Origin: Planctomycetota bacterium
GTDB taxonomy: Bacteria; Planctomycetota; Phycisphaerae; Phycisphaerales; SM1A02
Direction: 5' to 3'
Assembly (NCBI GenBank): GCA_003671025.1
Contig: QWPW01000015.1
Location: forward strand, 1 to 64,000
Length of the DNA: 64,000 bases
The position numbers were made by a program, and so were the translations under genes. Below are positions 28,313-36,782 of this stretch, in pieces; the stretch's first letter is position 1, and each line of letters begins with the position of its first letter. The notes below the pieces were generated by a model, which did not search any database, was not told the origin of the DNA, and was given only the letters and a program-made list of their open reading frames with translations.

Positions 28313-30166
28313 ATGAATTCAATTCCTAGTTTGAAGGCTGCCACGACCCTCGGATGCATCGCCCTTGGAGTCGCGGCTGTGTTGCTCGGACAGATCACCG
28401 CCACCGCCGCCGACGCGAAGAATCGCGAGCGAAAGTCAGGCAATGCGGGAGAGGGCGGCGTCGCTGGTGGCGCAGCCGATTGCGGTTCTGCCTCGTCGAT
28501 TGCCTTGGGCGAAACGCCCTTTGACACCACGACTTCGACGGTGAATCTGCAGATTCCCGCCGAAGCTCCCTGTGGCGCGCACACGATTTTCAAGTCGGTC
28601 TTCTTCCGTTTCACCGCCGAAGAAACGGGCTTGTACACCTTTGAAACGTGCGGCAACGATGTCTGGGACACGCGCATCGCGATCCTCAACGACTGCGACG
28701 TTGCGTTGGGCGTGATCGGTTGCGACGACGACGGTTGTGCCTGGCGCAGTCGCGCGGGCGCGGCGCTCGTCGCAGGCAACACCTATCGCGTGGCCATCGG
28801 CGCCTATTACGAGAACGACGGCGGCGTGGGAGTCCTCAAGGTTACCGAGCCAACTGGCGGTGGTACTGGCGGACCTCCTGATGTCATCGTCGGCGGTATT
28901 CCTGATGTTTCAAAGTATGGATCGACCGTCAGCGGTGGCGTGACCACCATGGCCTATTCATTTGGCACCACGAGTTGCAACATTGGCACGGGCCAACTCA
29001 GTTGGTACGGCGCGCCCGACAATCGGCATCCCTTCATTCCAATGAACATGTATCGATATAAGGGTGGGCGTTTGGAACAAATCGGAATGAGTTGGGGCAA
29101 GCACGGCTTCTGCGCGTTGCAAGGAACGCTGTGCAGCGCGTGCATTCCTGCGGGCGACGGCTGCCCGCCGATTCTCGGTGTTGGTTGCTCTGATCCCTAT
29201 TCATCCGACCTCAACGGTAGTCAAGGCGGACTCGGTACCCGCAAAGAAGTGAACGCCGCAACTGGCGCGTTTCCTGGCAGTTTCAACGCAGGAATGCCCG
29301 CCGCGTCGGCCACGATTGGTCGTCGATTGCAAGTGTTGGCCAACGATCTCAACCCTGCGATGAATGCCAACGCGCAGTATCTCGCCGAGGGTCAATACAT
29401 TCATCCTGAAGATGCGGCCGCGAACAACGACAACAACAACGCGTCGTGGCGGCAACTGGCTGTGGGCGCGCTCAGTGCGGGCGCGTACACGCTCACTCTC
29501 ACCGGCAACACGAAGCAACAACAAGCGGGCATCGAAGCGTGGAAGACCTTTAACCCCGCGGTGACATTAGTCAACACCGATGTCGTCGATGACGGTCGCT
29601 TCATTACCGCGTTCACCGTGACCAACAATGGAAACGGAACCTGGCGCTACGAATATGCAGTGCAGAATCTCAACTCCGATCGCTCCGCACGTTCGCTGTC
29701 GCTGCCGATTCCTGCGGGAGTGACCGTGAGCAACGCGGGATTCCATGACATCAACTATCACTCGGGCGATCCCTATGACCCCACTGATTGGAGCATCAAT
29801 GTGGGCAGCCAAGCGGTGACGTGGAGCGGCGGAACCTACGCCGTGAATGTCAACGGAAACGCATTACGCTTTGCAACTCTTTATAACTTCTGGTTCGACG
29901 CCAACCAGCCGCCCGCGGATGCCAGCGCCACACTCGGACTGTTCAAGCCAGGCGCAGCGGGCGCACCGACCGCGGTCTATGTGCCTGTTCAAGGCCCCGC
30001 CGCTCCTGCGGGCAACCCAGCCGACCTCAACAGTGACGGGTTCGTGAATGCCGCTGATCTCGCGATGTTGCTGGGAAACTGGGGCAACGCGGGCGTGGGC
30101 GACATCAACGGCGATAGCGTGGTGAACGCTGCCGATGTCACCATACTGTTGGGCGCATGGCAATGA
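28313..30166 (+). CDS. Secreted protein with PPC-like, novel conserved and dockerin domains (copy A)
   Basis: The 617-residue protein starts with a signal region (ATTLGCIALGVAAVLLGQ). Residues about 55-180 look like a bacterial pre-peptidase C-terminal (PPC) domain (FFRFTAEETGLYTFETCG, DTRIAILNDCD, VIGCDDDGC). From about 190 to 550 there is a domain I cannot assign, nearly shared with the protein at 31307-33118 (NRHPFIPMNMYRYKGGR, LGVGCSDPYSSDLNGSQGG, YEYAVQNLNSDRSARS). The last 50 residues are a dockerin pair (DLNSDGFVNAADLAMLLGNW, DINGDSVVNAADVTILLGAW) with Ca2+-binding Asp/Asn loops. The stop overlaps the next gene's start (ATGA). Confidence 0.75.
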   Translation: MNSIPSLKAATTLGCIALGVAAVLLGQITATAADAKNRERKSGNAGEGGVAGGAADCGSASSIALGETPFDTTTSTVNLQIPAEAPCGAHTIFKSVFFRFTAEETGLYTFETCGNDVWDTRIAILNDCDVALGVIGCDDDGCAWRSRAGAALVAGNTYRVAIGAYYENDGGVGVLKVTEPTGGGTGGPPDVIVGGIPDVSKYGSTVSGGVTTMAYSFGTTSCNIGTGQLSWYGAPDNRHPFIPMNMYRYKGGRLEQIGMSWGKHGFCALQGTLCSACIPAGDGCPPILGVGCSDPYSSDLNGSQGGLGTRKEVNAATGAFPGSFNAGMPAASATIGRRLQVLANDLNPAMNANAQYLAEGQYIHPEDAAANNDNNNASWRQLAVGALSAGAYTLTLTGNTKQQQAGIEAWKTFNPAVTLVNTDVVDDGRFITAFTVTNNGNGTWRYEYAVQNLNSDRSARSLSLPIPAGVTVSNAGFHDINYHSGDPYDPTDWSINVGSQAVTWSGGTYAVNVNGNALRFATLYNFWFDANQPPADASATLGLFKPGAAGAPTAVYVPVQGPAAPAGNPADLNSDGFVNAADLAMLLGNWGNAGVGDINGDSVVNAADVTILLGAWQ

Positions 30167-31095
30167 GCGCATCGCATTGCAGATTTCTGCTGGTCGCGTT
30201 GGCTGCAGGCGTGCTCGGTGCGTTCACGCCGCAAGTCCTCGCGCAAAATGCTGGCTGCCCCGAAGATGTCAACAGCGACGGTGTGGTTGACTCTAGCGAC
30301 CTCGCGATGGTGCTCTCCAAGTGGGGTCCCTGCGAGACCACTCTGGGTTGGGCCACCACCTTGGAGTTCGAACCTAACCCCGCGGTGGTCACCGACGAGA
30401 GCTTTCGCCAACGCATGGTTTCCACGGGCCTTCCGTGGCGCGTGCGCGACAACGGCACGCAGATGGAAATGCTGCTCGTCCCACCAGGCACCTACATGAT
30501 GGGTGCGAGTAAAGACGACAGTGAAGCGACGAAGGAGGAGTACCCCGCGCATGAGGTGACGCTCACCCATGCGTTCTATCTCAGCCGCACAGAAGTCACA
30601 CAAGCGACATGGCAAGCAACGATGAAGCAGAAGGACCCCAGCTCCTTCCACGGCGCGACGCTGCCCGTCAACAACCTGACCTTTGATCAAGCGAATCAGT
30701 TCTGCGCGGCGAATTCGATGCGACTTCCTACCGAAGCCGAGTGGGAGTACGCATGTCGCGGCGGCAACACCACTCCGCGCTACGGCGCGCTTGACGACAT
30801 CGGTTGGTATGTCGCCAACTCGCAACTCTCCACCCATCCCGTCGCGGAGAAACTACCCAATCCGCTGGGTTTCTACGACATGATTGGCAACGTGCGTGAG
30901 TGGTGCCAAGATTGGTACAGCGACTACACCGCCGCCGCCGTGGTTGATCCCATGGGACCAAAGAGTGGCGACGTGCGCATCCTTCGCGGTGGCTCATGGG
31001 TGATCAGCGCGGCGTATTGCCGAGCGTCCATTCGCGTCGAGACCCCGACGTTTTTCAGCTTCAGCATTGGATTCCGTGCCGCGCGAAATCCGTAG
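30163..31095 (+). CDS. Secreted dockerin-SUMF1 (formylglycine-generating-enzyme-like) protein
   Basis: Read from the ATG at 30163 (ATGA overlap with the upstream stop), it has a signal peptide (FLLVALAAGVLGAFTPQVLA), a short dockerin-like loop (DVNSDGVVDSSDLAMVLSKW) at about residues 35-60 and a SUMF1/FGE-sulfatase domain to the end. Typical blocks are VPPGTYMMGASKDD, FYLSRTEVTQATW, LPTEAEWEYACRGG, GNVREWCQDWYSDY and LRGGSWV. In true aerobic FGEs the segment after GGS carries two active-site cysteines; here only the second is present (AAYCRASIR) and the first is Ile. It is therefore more likely a non-catalytic or differently acting SUMF1 protein. Confidence 0.75.
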   Translation: MSASHCRFLLVALAAGVLGAFTPQVLAQNAGCPEDVNSDGVVDSSDLAMVLSKWGPCETTLGWATTLEFEPNPAVVTDESFRQRMVSTGLPWRVRDNGTQMEMLLVPPGTYMMGASKDDSEATKEEYPAHEVTLTHAFYLSRTEVTQATWQATMKQKDPSSFHGATLPVNNLTFDQANQFCAANSMRLPTEAEWEYACRGGNTTPRYGALDDIGWYVANSQLSTHPVAEKLPNPLGFYDMIGNVREWCQDWYSDYTAAAVVDPMGPKSGDVRILRGGSWVISAAYCRASIRVETPTFFSFSIGFRAARNP

Positions 31096-31306
31096 CGCAA
31101 AGGCGAGCGTTGAGGTGCGAGTGATGATGCGCTTGAATGCAACGCACCCCGTGAACAGCCGTGCGATCGCGCGATTTCAACTGTTTCTAGAATCCGCCTT
31201 TTGATTTCCGCGCACTCGGAGTACTCTTGACGAAGCCGCACGAGTGTGCGCGTTGTCGCATTGCGCGGAGTCCGTCGGCTCCACCACCCCCCGCTGAGAT
31301 TGCCTC

Positions 31307-33118
31307 ATGAAGACCTTCCTCACCCTCGCTCTCACGACTCTGGGAACCGCCGCAGTGCTCCTGGGACAATTCGAATCAAGCGCTAGCGGCGGCGGCAAAG
31401 GTGATGGGAAGGGCGACGGAGGTGTGGCTGGCGGATCAACCGACTGCGCGACTGCAGTGGCCGCCGTAGTGGGAGCGAACGCGTTCAACACGTCGAGCGC
31501 GACCGGTTCGATCGCGGTGGGTGCGGGCGGCGCTTGCGGCGCGCACACCATTTACAAGCCGAACTATTTCACCTTCACCCCTGCCACTACCGGCTCGTAC
31601 ACGATCGCCACCTGCAACAACTCGACGTGGGACACGCGCATCGCGGTGAACGCGGCGTGCGGCGCGAACCTCTCACCCATCGCGTGCGATGACGACAGCT
31701 GCGGCACGCAGAGTTCGGCGGTGGGCACCTTCACTGGGGGTGTGACCTATCGCGTCATCGTGGGTGGCTTCGGCAGTGGCGACAGCGGCGCGGGTTCGAT
31801 TCTGATCAGCTCGGGCGGCGGTTCTGGCGGCGGAACGATTGGTCCAGATGTCATCGTCGGATCGATTCCTGACATTTCTAAGTACGGATCTGTGGTCGTG
31901 AGTGGACAAACCATCATGGCCTACGCCATCGGTACCACGAGCTGCAACATCGGCGACGCGCTGCTCGATTGGTTCGCTTCGCCCGACAACCGCCATCCCT
32001 TCATCCCGCAGAACATCTACCGCATCAAGAGCGGACGCATCGAGCAAATCGGTCTCGGTTGGGGCAAGCACGGTTTCACTGCTTTGCAAGGGACTTTGTG
32101 CGGTTCCTGCACTCCTTCATCGAGCGGAAACTGGCTCGGGGTCGGTTGCAGTGATCCCTACAGCTCAGGCCTCAACGGAAGCCAAGGCGGATGCGGCACG
32201 CGCAGTGAAGTGAACGCTGCTACTGGCGTCTTCCCCGGCACCTACAACTCGGGAATGCCCGCTGCGCCCGCGACCATCGGTCGGCGCATTCAAGTCAACG
32301 GAAATGACCTTAATCCAACATTGAACCCATCGGCGACCTATCTGGTCGAGGCGCAGTACTACCACCCTGGCGACGCCAGCGCGGGCAACGACAACAACAA
32401 CGCCTCGTGGCGCTCGATCACCGTGGGCTCGCTCACCTCGGGCGCGTACAGCCTCACCCTCACTGGCGCGACCAATCAACAGAAGGCTGCGATCGAGGCG
32501 TGGAAGACGGCTGACGCCGCGGTCACGTTGGTCAACGCCGATGTCGCGCTCGATGGACGCTTCATCCTCGGCTACAAGGTCACCGACAACGGCAATGGCA
32601 CGTGGCACTACGAATACGCGGTGCAGAATCTCAACTCCGATCGCTCGGGGCAGTCGTTCTCCATTCCGCTTCCTGCGGGAACTGTGGTGACTGGGAGCGG
32701 GTTCCACGATGTGAACTATCACTCGGGCGATCCATACAGCCTCACCGATTGGGTCTTCACTTCCACGGGCGGCGCTGCGAAGTGGACCGGCGGAACCTAC
32801 GCCACCAGCGTGAACAGCAACGCGCTGCGTCTCTCGACGATCTACAACTTTTGGTTTGACGCGAATCGCGCGCCGACGGCGGTCAACGCAACGCTGGGGC
32901 TGTTCAAGCCGGGAGCATCGCCATCAATCACCATCGCCGCGCAAGGCCCCGCTGCTGCGGCGGGCAATCCATCCGACCTCAACTTCGATGGTCTGGTGAA
33001 TGGCTCTGACCTCGCGATCCTGCTCAACAACTGGGGCGGCACTGGCCTCGGCGACATCAACAACGACAGCGTTGTCAACGGCGCGGATCTCGCCGAGCTG
33101 CTCAACGCGTGGGGATGA
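31307..33118 (+). CDS. Secreted protein with PPC-like, novel conserved and dockerin domains (copy B)
   Basis: The 603-residue protein is the close paralogue of the protein at 28313. It has a signal peptide (LTLALTTLGTAAVLLGQ), a PPC-like domain (YFTFTPATTGSYTIATCN, DTRIAVNAACG, PIACDDDSCG), then the shared unassigned domain (NRHPFIPQNIYRIKSGRIEQ, LGVGCSDPYSSGLNGSQGG, NGTWHYEYAVQNLNSDRS). It ends in a dockerin pair (DLNFDGLVNGSDLAILLNNW, DINNDSVVNGADLAELLNAW). Long identical blocks shared with copy A point to a fairly recent duplication that left the SUMF1 gene between them. No catalytic motif was seen. Confidence 0.75.
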   Translation: MKTFLTLALTTLGTAAVLLGQFESSASGGGKGDGKGDGGVAGGSTDCATAVAAVVGANAFNTSSATGSIAVGAGGACGAHTIYKPNYFTFTPATTGSYTIATCNNSTWDTRIAVNAACGANLSPIACDDDSCGTQSSAVGTFTGGVTYRVIVGGFGSGDSGAGSILISSGGGSGGGTIGPDVIVGSIPDISKYGSVVVSGQTIMAYAIGTTSCNIGDALLDWFASPDNRHPFIPQNIYRIKSGRIEQIGLGWGKHGFTALQGTLCGSCTPSSSGNWLGVGCSDPYSSGLNGSQGGCGTRSEVNAATGVFPGTYNSGMPAAPATIGRRIQVNGNDLNPTLNPSATYLVEAQYYHPGDASAGNDNNNASWRSITVGSLTSGAYSLTLTGATNQQKAAIEAWKTADAAVTLVNADVALDGRFILGYKVTDNGNGTWHYEYAVQNLNSDRSGQSFSIPLPAGTVVTGSGFHDVNYHSGDPYSLTDWVFTSTGGAAKWTGGTYATSVNSNALRLSTIYNFWFDANRAPTAVNATLGLFKPGASPSITIAAQGPAAAAGNPSDLNFDGLVNGSDLAILLNNWGGTGLGDINNDSVVNGADLAELLNAWG

Positions 33119-33130
33119 GTCGGTGAAACA

Positions 33131-33799
33131 TCACCCCTCGCGCGGAAACTCATAGCCAAACTGTGTGAGTTCGACTGCGCACGCTTGTTCGACGACCGAG
33201 CGCGCGCGCTCGGAGTACATCGATGCCACAGTTGCTTCGCGAGGACGAATTCCCGCCTTGAACGTCGGCAGCGCGTCGGGCTCCCAGGGGATGCTCAGTC
33301 GCGCGCATGTCGACGCCATGTCGGCGGCCATCTGTTCATGGCGAATCACTCCGTCGAGGCAAAACACACCGTCGATCAAGTACTGATCCTGATCGAGCAT
33401 CGGCCCGTCGCTCACGAGCCATTGCTCGAATTGTTCAGGCTCGCTGAGCGTCGCATCAAGCGCAATCGCGCCCTTGCGCTTCTTAAAGAAAAACGCGGAC
33501 ACAGCCTTTTCAAAGGGATTTCGCACCACGCAGAACTTGTAATAGCGCTGCCAGAATTCTTCGCCGATCTGTTGCCGCAGCATCGACGCCGGCATGTGAT
33601 TCCACCAACGGCACAATGCGAGATCAATCTTGCCGCGCCGCCCGATGATGCCCTCAGGCGAAACCAATTCCTCGCGCGCGTGACTGGCACTCCACTCCCC
33701 CGGCGCCATGCAGTAGCGCTCAAAAAACGCTTCCACCGAAGTGCCGCCCGTCTTCACAGTCTTGGTGTAAATGAACTGGCACCGATGGCTTACGAGCAT
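33131..33799 (-). CDS. Sulfotransferase-family protein
   Basis: The 222-residue protein has the two PAPS-binding elements of cytosolic/Golgi-type sulfotransferases. The 5'-phosphosulfate loop is FIYTKTVKTGGTSVEAFF near residue 10. The 3'-phosphate region is CVVRNPFEKAVSAFFFKKR near residue 90, with the usual Arg and Ser. It would transfer sulfate to a carbohydrate or lipid acceptor. It sits convergent to copy B of the dockerin proteins (13 bases apart). A link to a sulfated polysaccharide is possible but unproven. Confidence 0.75.
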   Translation of the reverse strand: MLVSHRCQFIYTKTVKTGGTSVEAFFERYCMAPGEWSASHAREELVSPEGIIGRRGKIDLALCRWWNHMPASMLRQQIGEEFWQRYYKFCVVRNPFEKAVSAFFFKKRKGAIALDATLSEPEQFEQWLVSDGPMLDQDQYLIDGVFCLDGVIRHEQMAADMASTCARLSIPWEPDALPTFKAGIRPREATVASMYSERARSVVEQACAVELTQFGYEFPREG

Positions 33800-35450: not shown

Positions 35451-36494
35451 TTACGGACACACGCCCCATGCTGAAAGCAGAACGGTGATGTCAGCAGCAT
35501 CGACCATTCCATCATTGGTGACATCCGCAAGATCGGTGCCCCAGTAGGCGAGCATGGTGGCGAGATCCGCCGCGCCCACATTGCCATCAAGATCAAGATC
35601 CGCAGGACATGGCGTGCTGCCGCCACCGGGAAGTTCGATCACGGCAACGTGCACGTAGCCCGCACCCGCGTCGTTGAGATCATTCCATTTCCCGTTCGAA
35701 CCAAGCATTTCCGCGTAGTGCTCGACCGCGCCGGAGTTGTTGGGCTCGCCCGGATTCCAGTTGGTGTACTTGGCCGAGGAACCATCGCTCCAGTAAAACG
35801 CTCCTTCGGATCCGAAGTCAGTGAAGCCAATCCACAGACGACGATCGACGCCAGCGATGTTGCCGAAGTTGCTGAGCACGAAGTCTTGTTCAGCTTGATC
35901 GTTGATCGATGCAAGGTGTCCACCGAGCGAAACCGCGAGCGCCTCCGATGAGGTCCAAGTGGTTCCGATCAGGCTGACGTAGCGAATGCCCGTGGACTTG
36001 TCGGTGGCCTCGTGAAGAAAGGCGATGGGACCAATGGTCATGGTGCCGCTGCCGAAGTTAGTCGCGCCGTAAGCACCCATGCGAATGAGATACGACTGAC
36101 CCGCGGTGGCGCTGAAACTTACTTTGGTTTGCAGCGAGCAATTGTCATCCGAGCAGGCGATCACTGGTGACGCGCAATCAGTTCCGCCGTAAATCGCGAT
36201 CTTCGTATCGAGCGTGCTCTGCGCGCAGGTCGAGACGTCGACGATGGTGGACTCGGGCGCGGTGAAGGTGAACCAGACATCGTTGAAGATCTGTTGGTTG
36301 CCGAAGAAGGTGCACAACACGTCGGCGAGACCGTCGGTGGTTGAGCCGACGTTGCTAAACGGATAGGTGCCGTAGCCCTTGGTCGACTGCGCCGACGCGC
36401 AATCGTTGGCGCCTTGTGCCGCGGCGAACGCGCACGAAGAAAGTGCAGCCGTCACGGCAGCGAATCGAAGGAAGACAGACGTTGATCGTTTCAT
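35451..36494 (-). CDS. Secreted PPC-like, C-type-lectin-like and dockerin protein
   Basis: Numbered from ATG 36494 (the frame is open to 36524), the 347-residue protein has a signal peptide (FLRFAAVTAALSSCAFAAAQ). A PPC-like domain follows (WFTFTAPESTIVDVSTCA, DTKIAIYGGTDC, VIACSDDNC), as in the two 28-33 kb proteins. A C-type-lectin-like domain covers about residues 155-285 (SSEALAVSLGGHLASINDQ, LWIGFTDFGSEG, WNPGEPNNSG with EPN, GKWNDLND with WND). The C-terminus carries a dockerin pair (DLDLDGNVGAADLATMLAYW, VTNDGMVDAADITVLLSAW). EPN and WND suggest Ca2+-dependent mannose-type sugar binding. Confidence 0.8.
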   Translation of the reverse strand: MKRSTSVFLRFAAVTAALSSCAFAAAQGANDCASAQSTKGYGTYPFSNVGSTTDGLADVLCTFFGNQQIFNDVWFTFTAPESTIVDVSTCAQSTLDTKIAIYGGTDCASPVIACSDDNCSLQTKVSFSATAGQSYLIRMGAYGATNFGSGTMTIGPIAFLHEATDKSTGIRYVSLIGTTWTSSEALAVSLGGHLASINDQAEQDFVLSNFGNIAGVDRRLWIGFTDFGSEGAFYWSDGSSAKYTNWNPGEPNNSGAVEHYAEMLGSNGKWNDLNDAGAGYVHVAVIELPGGGSTPCPADLDLDGNVGAADLATMLAYWGTDLADVTNDGMVDAADITVLLSAWGVCP

Positions 36495-36782
36495 GGGACC
36501 TCGAAAAAAGAACTCTGCACCCACACCGCGCCGCGTTACGCACGACGCTAGCTTCGAGCGACGCGCGGCTGCGAAAGCAGCGCCATCAACTCTCGGACTC
36601 GTAGGATTAACTTGCCACCAACGCGGACCGAGTCAATGAAAATCTCGGCACAAAGGCTTAAGCGGCGAACATCATGAAGCTCGGAGCTCGTTTCATTTGC
36701 GCTCGGGCGATTTTCGGCTTCGCGGCAATCGATTGCGCACTCAAGGCGTTGCCCTGTCGATACTTTCGGAGTTCAACCGCTC

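Follow-up and report, generated by a model that had tools for sequence, protein, structure and literature searches.

Introduction

Lysyl oxidase (LOX) cross-links the connective tissue of animals. Its activity depends on a histidine copper core together with a lysine and a tyrosine (K320 and Y355 in human LOX), according to the excerpts of PMC4448552 used here, which name five bacterial clades as having LOX and do not count Planctomycetes among these. PMC6452851, again as excerpted, describes an archaeal LOX whose activity was raised only by copper. Red-algal LOX-like proteins from Cyanidium and Cyanidioschyzon keep the lysine and tyrosine without the copper-binding histidines, and the Cyanidium protein is secreted (excerpts of PMC6508830 and PMC4448552). 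A further described system is the planctosome, a hypothetical cohesin/dockerin peptidase complex proposed for freshwater Nemodlikiaceae in the excerpted text of PMC6461901. Here we describe two genes, A and B, in the first 64,000 nucleotides ("the window") of contig QWPW01000015.1 from a Planctomycetota bacterium of the Phycisphaerales (assembly GCA_003671025.1). We consider it fairly probable that their products are exported, dockerin-tagged, copper-less LOX-like proteins that act on amine groups as passengers of a peptide-processing surface complex. In the open-access literature we found no paper joining lysyl oxidase in bacteria with Planctomycetes or Planctomycetota, and lysyl oxidase combined with dockerin returned only papers that appeared unrelated from their listing.

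A duplicated gene pair with a predicted lysyl oxidase-like core

A and B are open reading frames on the + strand, at 28313-30166 and 31307-33118. Their products are 60% identical across 564 residues (E 0.0), and the blocks NRHPFIP, GVGCSDPYSS and YEYAVQNLNSDRS have the same letters in both. In each, a signal peptide recognized by eye precedes a PPC-like beta domain, after which come a core some 370 residues long and a dockerin pair. The initial annotation had described them as two long secreted duplicates with dockerins, and this description holds, with export a prediction from signal peptides judged by eye. The features are as follows; residue numbers such as Lys77 count from the start of the core.

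28313..30166, + strand: gene A, putatively exported LOX-like dockerin protein, 617 aa; signal peptide at about residues 1-33, by eye
28472..28843, + strand: A, PPC-like N-terminal beta domain, from alignment with B; linked to PPC/GBD_T9SS_assoc only via gene 35451-36524
28868..29560, + strand: A, predicted LOX-like module, from family alignments; fold taken from the B model
29099-29101 and 29198-29200, + strand: A, Lys and Tyr codons of the LOX-like module; codons checked
29561..30001, + strand: A, predicted Ig/CBM2-like beta-sandwich after the LOX-like module, modelled on B
30008..30160, + strand: A, dockerin pair (PF00404, 29.8 bits, two stretches)
30157..31095, + strand: SUMF1/FGE-fold gene with a single dockerin-like repeat (PF03781, E 2.8e-48); by neighbourhood tests not a conserved partner
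31307..33118, + strand: gene B, putatively exported LOX-like dockerin protein, 603 aa; signal peptide at about residues 1-27, by eye
31436..31810, + strand: B, PPC-like N-terminal beta domain, from sequence alignments
31838..32521, + strand: B, predicted LOX-like module, domain residues 1-228 (AF2 pLDDT 92.9)
31994..31999, + strand: B, His53-Pro54, where alignments place the copper-binding HxHxH motif
32066..32068, + strand: B, Lys77 of the domain, aligned with the LOX cofactor Lys (profile alignment)
32153..32161, + strand: B, Asp106-Pro-Tyr108, the Tyr aligned with the LOX cofactor Tyr (profile alignment)
32522..32950, + strand: B, predicted Ig/CBM2-like beta-sandwich, domain residues 229-371 (structure model)
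32969..33115, + strand: B, dockerin pair (PF00404, 20.5 bits, below cut-off)

We modelled the whole core of B with AlphaFold2 (AF2), without templates, from a 64-row alignment of the two window cores and 62 of 81 references, hand-chosen with near-duplicates and fragments dropped (pLDDT 94.9, pTM 0.93). In the VIA comparison, which bears on the families listed by VIA, the best row was human LOXL2 (5ze3, Z 10.2), with model residues 1-225 on LOXL2 546-762; the rows that followed were sandwiches with Z 9.1 or less, mostly matching residues 225-371. When the first 228 residues were modelled alone, again without templates (pLDDT 92.9, pTM 0.90), Foldseek ranked LOXL2 5ze3 first (E 4.3e-3, probability 0.99, 270 columns, TMq 0.45), and its second row stood at E 4.5e-2. 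VIA placed this module on LOXL2 546-763 with Z 10.5 over 171 residues and an rmsd of 4.3 A, the next entry scoring 7.4. In a search of a viral structure library, no match reached E 0.001.

The second half of the core is predicted to share the fold of CBM2/Ig-like beta-sandwiches. Foldseek matched it to the CBM2 folds 2cwr and 1exg (probability 1.00), but in VIA its 3ndy match (Z 8.2) tied with adaptin and other sandwiches. The models thus suggest a divergent LOX fold followed by an Ig/CBM2-like beta-sandwich, from which we infer homology to LOX.

Sequence evidence linking the core to lysyl oxidase

The resemblance to LOX shows clearly only by structure comparison, and the sequence link alone is weak. 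Neither A and B nor the 64 family members matched any Pfam or NCBIfam family above chance over the core, and no significant match was found among PDB sequences, which excludes a known family recognizable by sequence in these collections. The initial annotation, which could not match the central domain to a known family, is therefore borne out by sequence searches, whereas the predicted structure does resemble a described fold. Canonical LOX (PF01186) was found in 8 of 199 planctomycete genomes, with no match in the genome that carries A and B.

For profile comparison we assembled 14 LOX sequences (nine planctomycete loci, four of eight plasmid records and the LOXL2 segment). The 64-row profile aligned to this set in hhalign with a score of 25.9 across 150 columns, compared with 16.2 +- 3.2 for block-shuffled controls (1 of 200 reached 25.9), 13.1 +- 2.3 for column-shuffled controls (0 of 200) and 13.0 for a reversed profile. 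The alignment registered N37-x-G39, a Tyr-Arg pair, Lys77, Asp106-x-Tyr108 and a terminal Asn-Asn on LOX motifs. A LOX hidden Markov model (HMM) paired its consensus 'tCgkskkqgisvGwaDvYskdldgQ' with 'SCAGTDGSTLGVGCSDLYSSGLNGQ' of a family member.

The LOX HMM separated 178 family proteins from 1479 other open reading frames (ORFs) with an area under the curve (AUC) of 0.96 (best family score 6.8 bits), and the family HMM ranked 13 LOX proteins with an AUC of 0.92 (best 3.6 bits, other ORFs up to 3.1); in both, unreported ORFs were set at a floor score, and the family members are mutually related. Partner modules point the same way. Among three canonical planctomycete LOX proteins scanned, one carried a dockerin (L142), one PPC domains (L143) and one neither (L144), and the sharing of these modules with A and B in two of three supports a LOX-like reading.

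Taken against PF01186 proteins, the A/B family is remotely similar in its predicted fold and, by profile alignment, alike in Lys and Tyr at the cofactor positions with an Asp two residues before the Tyr and in the N-x-G and terminal NN motifs; planctomycete LOX, too, is sometimes joined to PPC or dockerin modules. The family differs in having neither the HxHxH copper motif nor a PF01186 match, in about 30 extra residues after D-x-Y, and in the Ig/CBM2-like sandwich that follows the module.

We also considered that the core could be an unrelated Ig-like double beta-sandwich with an adhesive function and a chance likeness to LOXL2. Single sequence scores to LOX are insignificant, and the Foldseek rows for the whole core are adhesins and integrins (SdrE at E 4.3e-5 and SdrG at 2.9e-4, TMq about 0.2). 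With the isolated module, however, LOXL2 alone stood above the other rows (Z 10.5 versus 7.4), an independent profile alignment set the cofactor residues in register, and the family shares partner modules with canonical planctomycete LOX. We regard an unrelated fold as distinctly unlikely.

Residues aligned with the LOX cofactor are kept and the copper motif is absent

In the profile alignment, the Lys and Tyr of the lysyl tyrosylquinone (LTQ) cofactor have almost invariant counterparts in the family. Across three overlapping alignment sets, Lys77 was present in 64/64, 117/120 and 76/76 sequences, Asp106 in 64/64, 119/120 and 76/76, and Tyr108 in 64/64, 119/120 and 75/76. The 120-row set contains three rows without an aligned Lys or Tyr: L098, which is cut, L177, which has gaps, and L118, which is interrupted by a stop. 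In L118 (7380-9656) the family gene is broken by this stop, and the conserved Lys, Asp and Tyr have become R, N and N. Cys88, Cys91 and Cys104 were present in all 120 rows.

An HxH at the aligned place was found in none of the 120 and none of the 76 sequences. Judged by the ungapped stretch before the Tyr-Arg pair, the last His position of the copper motif corresponds to Pro54 (116/120). His53 (108/120) and His78 (110/120) are frequent, yet neither occurs in every row, so they cannot supply a substitute metal site for the family as a whole.

The acidophilic red-algal LOX-like proteins are a precedent for this pattern, since they too keep the Lys and Tyr and not the copper-binding histidines. 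They differ in that ordinary sequence comparison recognizes their LOX homology, and the excerpts of their published descriptions, from which alone we compare them, do not mention a dockerin.

Strict conservation of the Lys-Tyr pair argues for chemistry. The same data can be read as those of a LOX-derived pseudoenzyme, in which the fold and Lys/Asp/Tyr would be kept for structure or ligand binding in a non-catalytic adhesin or substrate-binding subunit. The copper triad was seen in no sequence examined, PPC-like and CBM2/Ig-like modules accompany the core, and tandem copies (at least two side by side) occur at 15 of 60 fetched loci, a count that is no rate because the loci were hand-chosen and some stretches were widened to include a second copy. 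Yet the strictest-kept residues phylum-wide include the LOX cofactor pair, for which a mere binding fold would have no need. We give the pseudoenzyme considerable weight, short of calling it probable.

Alternatively, the invariant Lys and Asp might not be part of a catalytic site but be joined within the molecule by an isopeptide-type cross-link, which would stiffen an adhesin stalk. Some of the weak structural rows are ester-bond adhesin domains (Z 5.4-5.6), and FctA, an isopeptide domain, gave a single-member Pfam row at E 0.15. These rows lie far under LOXL2 and within the background range, and the Tyr is equally invariant, which makes a cross-link very improbable.

The family is widespread in Planctomycetota and the duplication is old

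The genome holds three copies of the core, two on contig C7 and one on contig C13. A profile of A and B found the core in 66 of 101 related genomes, and the 64-row profile found it in 94 of 392 Planctomycetota genomes; the copy counts of the latter survey are minimum values, as it scored only five candidates in most genomes. Among the best 79 loci listed from the genome collection, 66 were Planctomycetota by title, nine were unplaced bacteria and four were titled as other phyla (L066 and L098 Limnohabitans, L072 Chitinophaga, L083 Bacteroidia). Three of these four sit among planctomycete rows in a tree, so the four are probably mislabelled bins. No family relatives were found in viral contigs with back-translated patterns, or in plasmids or phages with tblastn, which led us to set aside a mobile or viral origin.

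The modules after the core vary. Phycisphaerales relatives carry dockerin pairs, Pla86-like genomes have a different conserved C-terminal region, and one protein (L120) has a FlgD-like end, the last two judged by eye. Such variation would be expected of a functional core with lineage-specific surface attachment.

In a quick tree of 65 cores, the group of B (SH-aLRT 89) took in eight rows, from seven genus members and one family member. A fell together with L061 and a single genus member (SH-aLRT 97), and three further rows joined the C13 copy (SH-aLRT 99). Because A and B group with different relatives, they are old paralogues whose split is older than the divergence of those species, and this grouping excludes a recent tandem duplication.

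Metallopeptidase neighbours and a cohesin scaffold

We examined 60 loci from 39 genomes, hand-chosen rather than random among the matches listed, and comprising 20 A/B-like (high-ranking) loci and 40 others; they were sorted by rank, not by a tree of all 60, and several are cut by contig ends. An M12B (reprolysin-type) metallopeptidase gene lay beside the family gene on the same strand at 17 of the 40 loci unlike A/B (L186-L195, L197, L200, L201, L203, L204, L206 and L209). A strict downstream test gave 15 of 40; the frames overlap at L193 and L195, which are included in the 17. With eight Reprolysin_4 matches in this genome, the chance of such a neighbour is about 2.8% per locus, a figure derived from the density in this genome alone, with a window to either side and with related loci treated as independent.

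The C13 copy is part of a further pair of LOX-like and M12B genes (L185, 3535-5943; Pfam Reprolysin), and the end of the peptidase in this pair matches the B dockerin (E 2e-8; Pfam 13.9 bits, below cut-off). Dockerin matches also occur in further M12B frames of this genome, among them one of 757 aa on contig C6 and one of 890 aa on contig C8. A conserved neighbourhood in general was rejected: among the 14 widest clusters, the widest outside the family covered four of 48 mixed-clade loci (the window plus L061-L107, many cut short).

Both cohesins of this genome are on contig C36. One belongs to a scaffold-like protein of 2228 aa (L184, 5435-12121) with a lamin tail domain (LTD), P-domains, TSP3 repeats and a cohesin that was missed in the whole-protein scan and reached 27.5 bits (cut-off 24.1) with its region scanned alone. 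The other is in an adaptor-like protein (L184, 12506-14086) with cohesin, HYR and dockerin domains. A dockerin-tagged alpha-amylase frame lies nearby (L184, 16575-19139). Dockerin_1 has 45 matches in the 3.2-Mb genome, against the two cohesin matches.

This genome resembles the planctosome as described in the excerpts of PMC6461901 in its LTD, P-domain, TSP3 and cohesin scaffold, its cohesin-HYR-dockerin adaptor and its dockerin-bearing M12B peptidases. It differs in that those excerpts name peptidases as passengers and do not mention a LOX-like one. Two features of planctosome-type passengers were found for A and B, namely a C-terminal type I dockerin pair and a cohesin scaffold in the genome. 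The earlier suggestion of a secreted complex is plausible, because the genome encodes cohesins and two planctosome-type scaffold-like proteins.

The SUMF1-type gene and other neighbours

Between A and B lies a SUMF1-type gene (30157-31095; PF03781, E 2.8e-48) with one Dockerin_1 stretch of 19.5 bits, below cut-off. Its ATG overlaps the stop of A, and B begins 212 bp past it. The initial annotation had taken its retention between the duplicates as a sign of a functional unit. Such a conserved cassette would fit the overlap of stop and start codons, the common direction of the three genes and the dockerin-like repeats in all three proteins. Related loci contradict it: SUMF1 lay near five of the best 79 loci listed, many of them cut by contig ends, was found at none of the 60 hand-chosen loci, which were taken with flanks of about 5 kb as far as the contigs reached, and in neither set stood between the copies of a tandem pair. 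The genome moreover holds five PF03781 matches in all. We therefore reject the claim and regard a conserved cassette as very improbable; an A-SUMF1-B operon in this single species is possible.

The SUMF1-type protein has a formylglycine-generating enzyme (FGE) fold, and one of what we take to be the two FGE active-site cysteines seems to be missing (...RGGSWVISAAYCRAS...). For this reason it is probably not a sulfatase activator.

The modules that flank the core were partly supported by Pfam. Dockerins were the only Pfam calls in A and B; against a cut-off of 22.9 bits, the pair in A passes (29.8) and the pair in B falls just under (20.5), with two visible repeats. The PPC-like domain proposed earlier has no Pfam call in either protein. 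Its label comes from similarity to the N-domain of a nearby C-type lectin gene (35451-36524), to which B residues 80-162 are 31% identical and which itself matched GBD_T9SS_assoc at E 9.6e-5 (below cut-off) and PPC weakly (0.011).

That gene, on the - strand, combines the PPC/GBD_T9SS-like domain with a C-type lectin domain and a dockerin that is 51% identical to the dockerin of B. Directly past B on the opposite strand is a gene of the sulfotransferase family (33131-33799, - strand; PF03567, 25.8 bits).

Discussion

In the mechanism that we propose, the dockerins of A and B would attach them to cohesin-bearing surface scaffolds of the cell, next to dockerin-tagged metallopeptidases. There they may act on proteinaceous particles, at amine groups such as those of peptidyl-lysine. 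The Lys-Tyr site would most likely carry out this action with no copper centre of the LOX type; failing that, the proteins may do no more than bind.

Several results weigh against this proposal. The structural match to LOXL2 is very distant (TMq 0.45, below 0.5; rmsd 4.3 A; 9-11% identity). PF01186 (cut-off 20.4 bits) was absent from the 18 families listed for the 64 members at E up to 1, and LOX HMM scores of the family reached at most 6.8 bits, while unrelated ORFs reached 7.8 and a short one 9.4. The probability that hhalign itself assigned was 7.8% in the run with 14 LOX sequences and 0.1-9% over all runs; small LOX sets gave low values, and one global run paired parts that are unrelated. 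Loss of the copper triad, as read from the alignments, would weigh against LOX chemistry as known, because the archaeal LOX in the excerpts of PMC6452851 gained activity from copper only.

The link of A and B to the scaffold is circumstantial, since none of the 20 A/B-like loci has an M12B neighbour and cohesin was not found in 27 of 41 genomes. With cohesin genes in 14 of the 41, the scaffold is either not universal or not always detected.

The boldest form of the proposal is that this widespread planctomycete family consists of LOX-fold enzymes that form or employ a Lys-Tyr cofactor minus the copper talon and, as passengers of a cohesin-dockerin peptidase complex, oxidize the lysine side chains of particle proteins while neighbouring metallopeptidases cut these proteins. 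This version is speculative, and we consider it rather unlikely.

The LOX-like reading gives a testable identity to a domain present in about a quarter of the sampled planctomycete genomes and unnamed by Pfam and NCBIfam. It also extends the candidate components of the hypothetical planctosome, a complex of abundant lake bacteria, beyond peptidases. Should the Lys-Tyr pair prove to be a functional cofactor, the family would represent LOX-type chemistry without the copper triad; should it not, the family would provide a clean natural series from an oxidase to a binding module.

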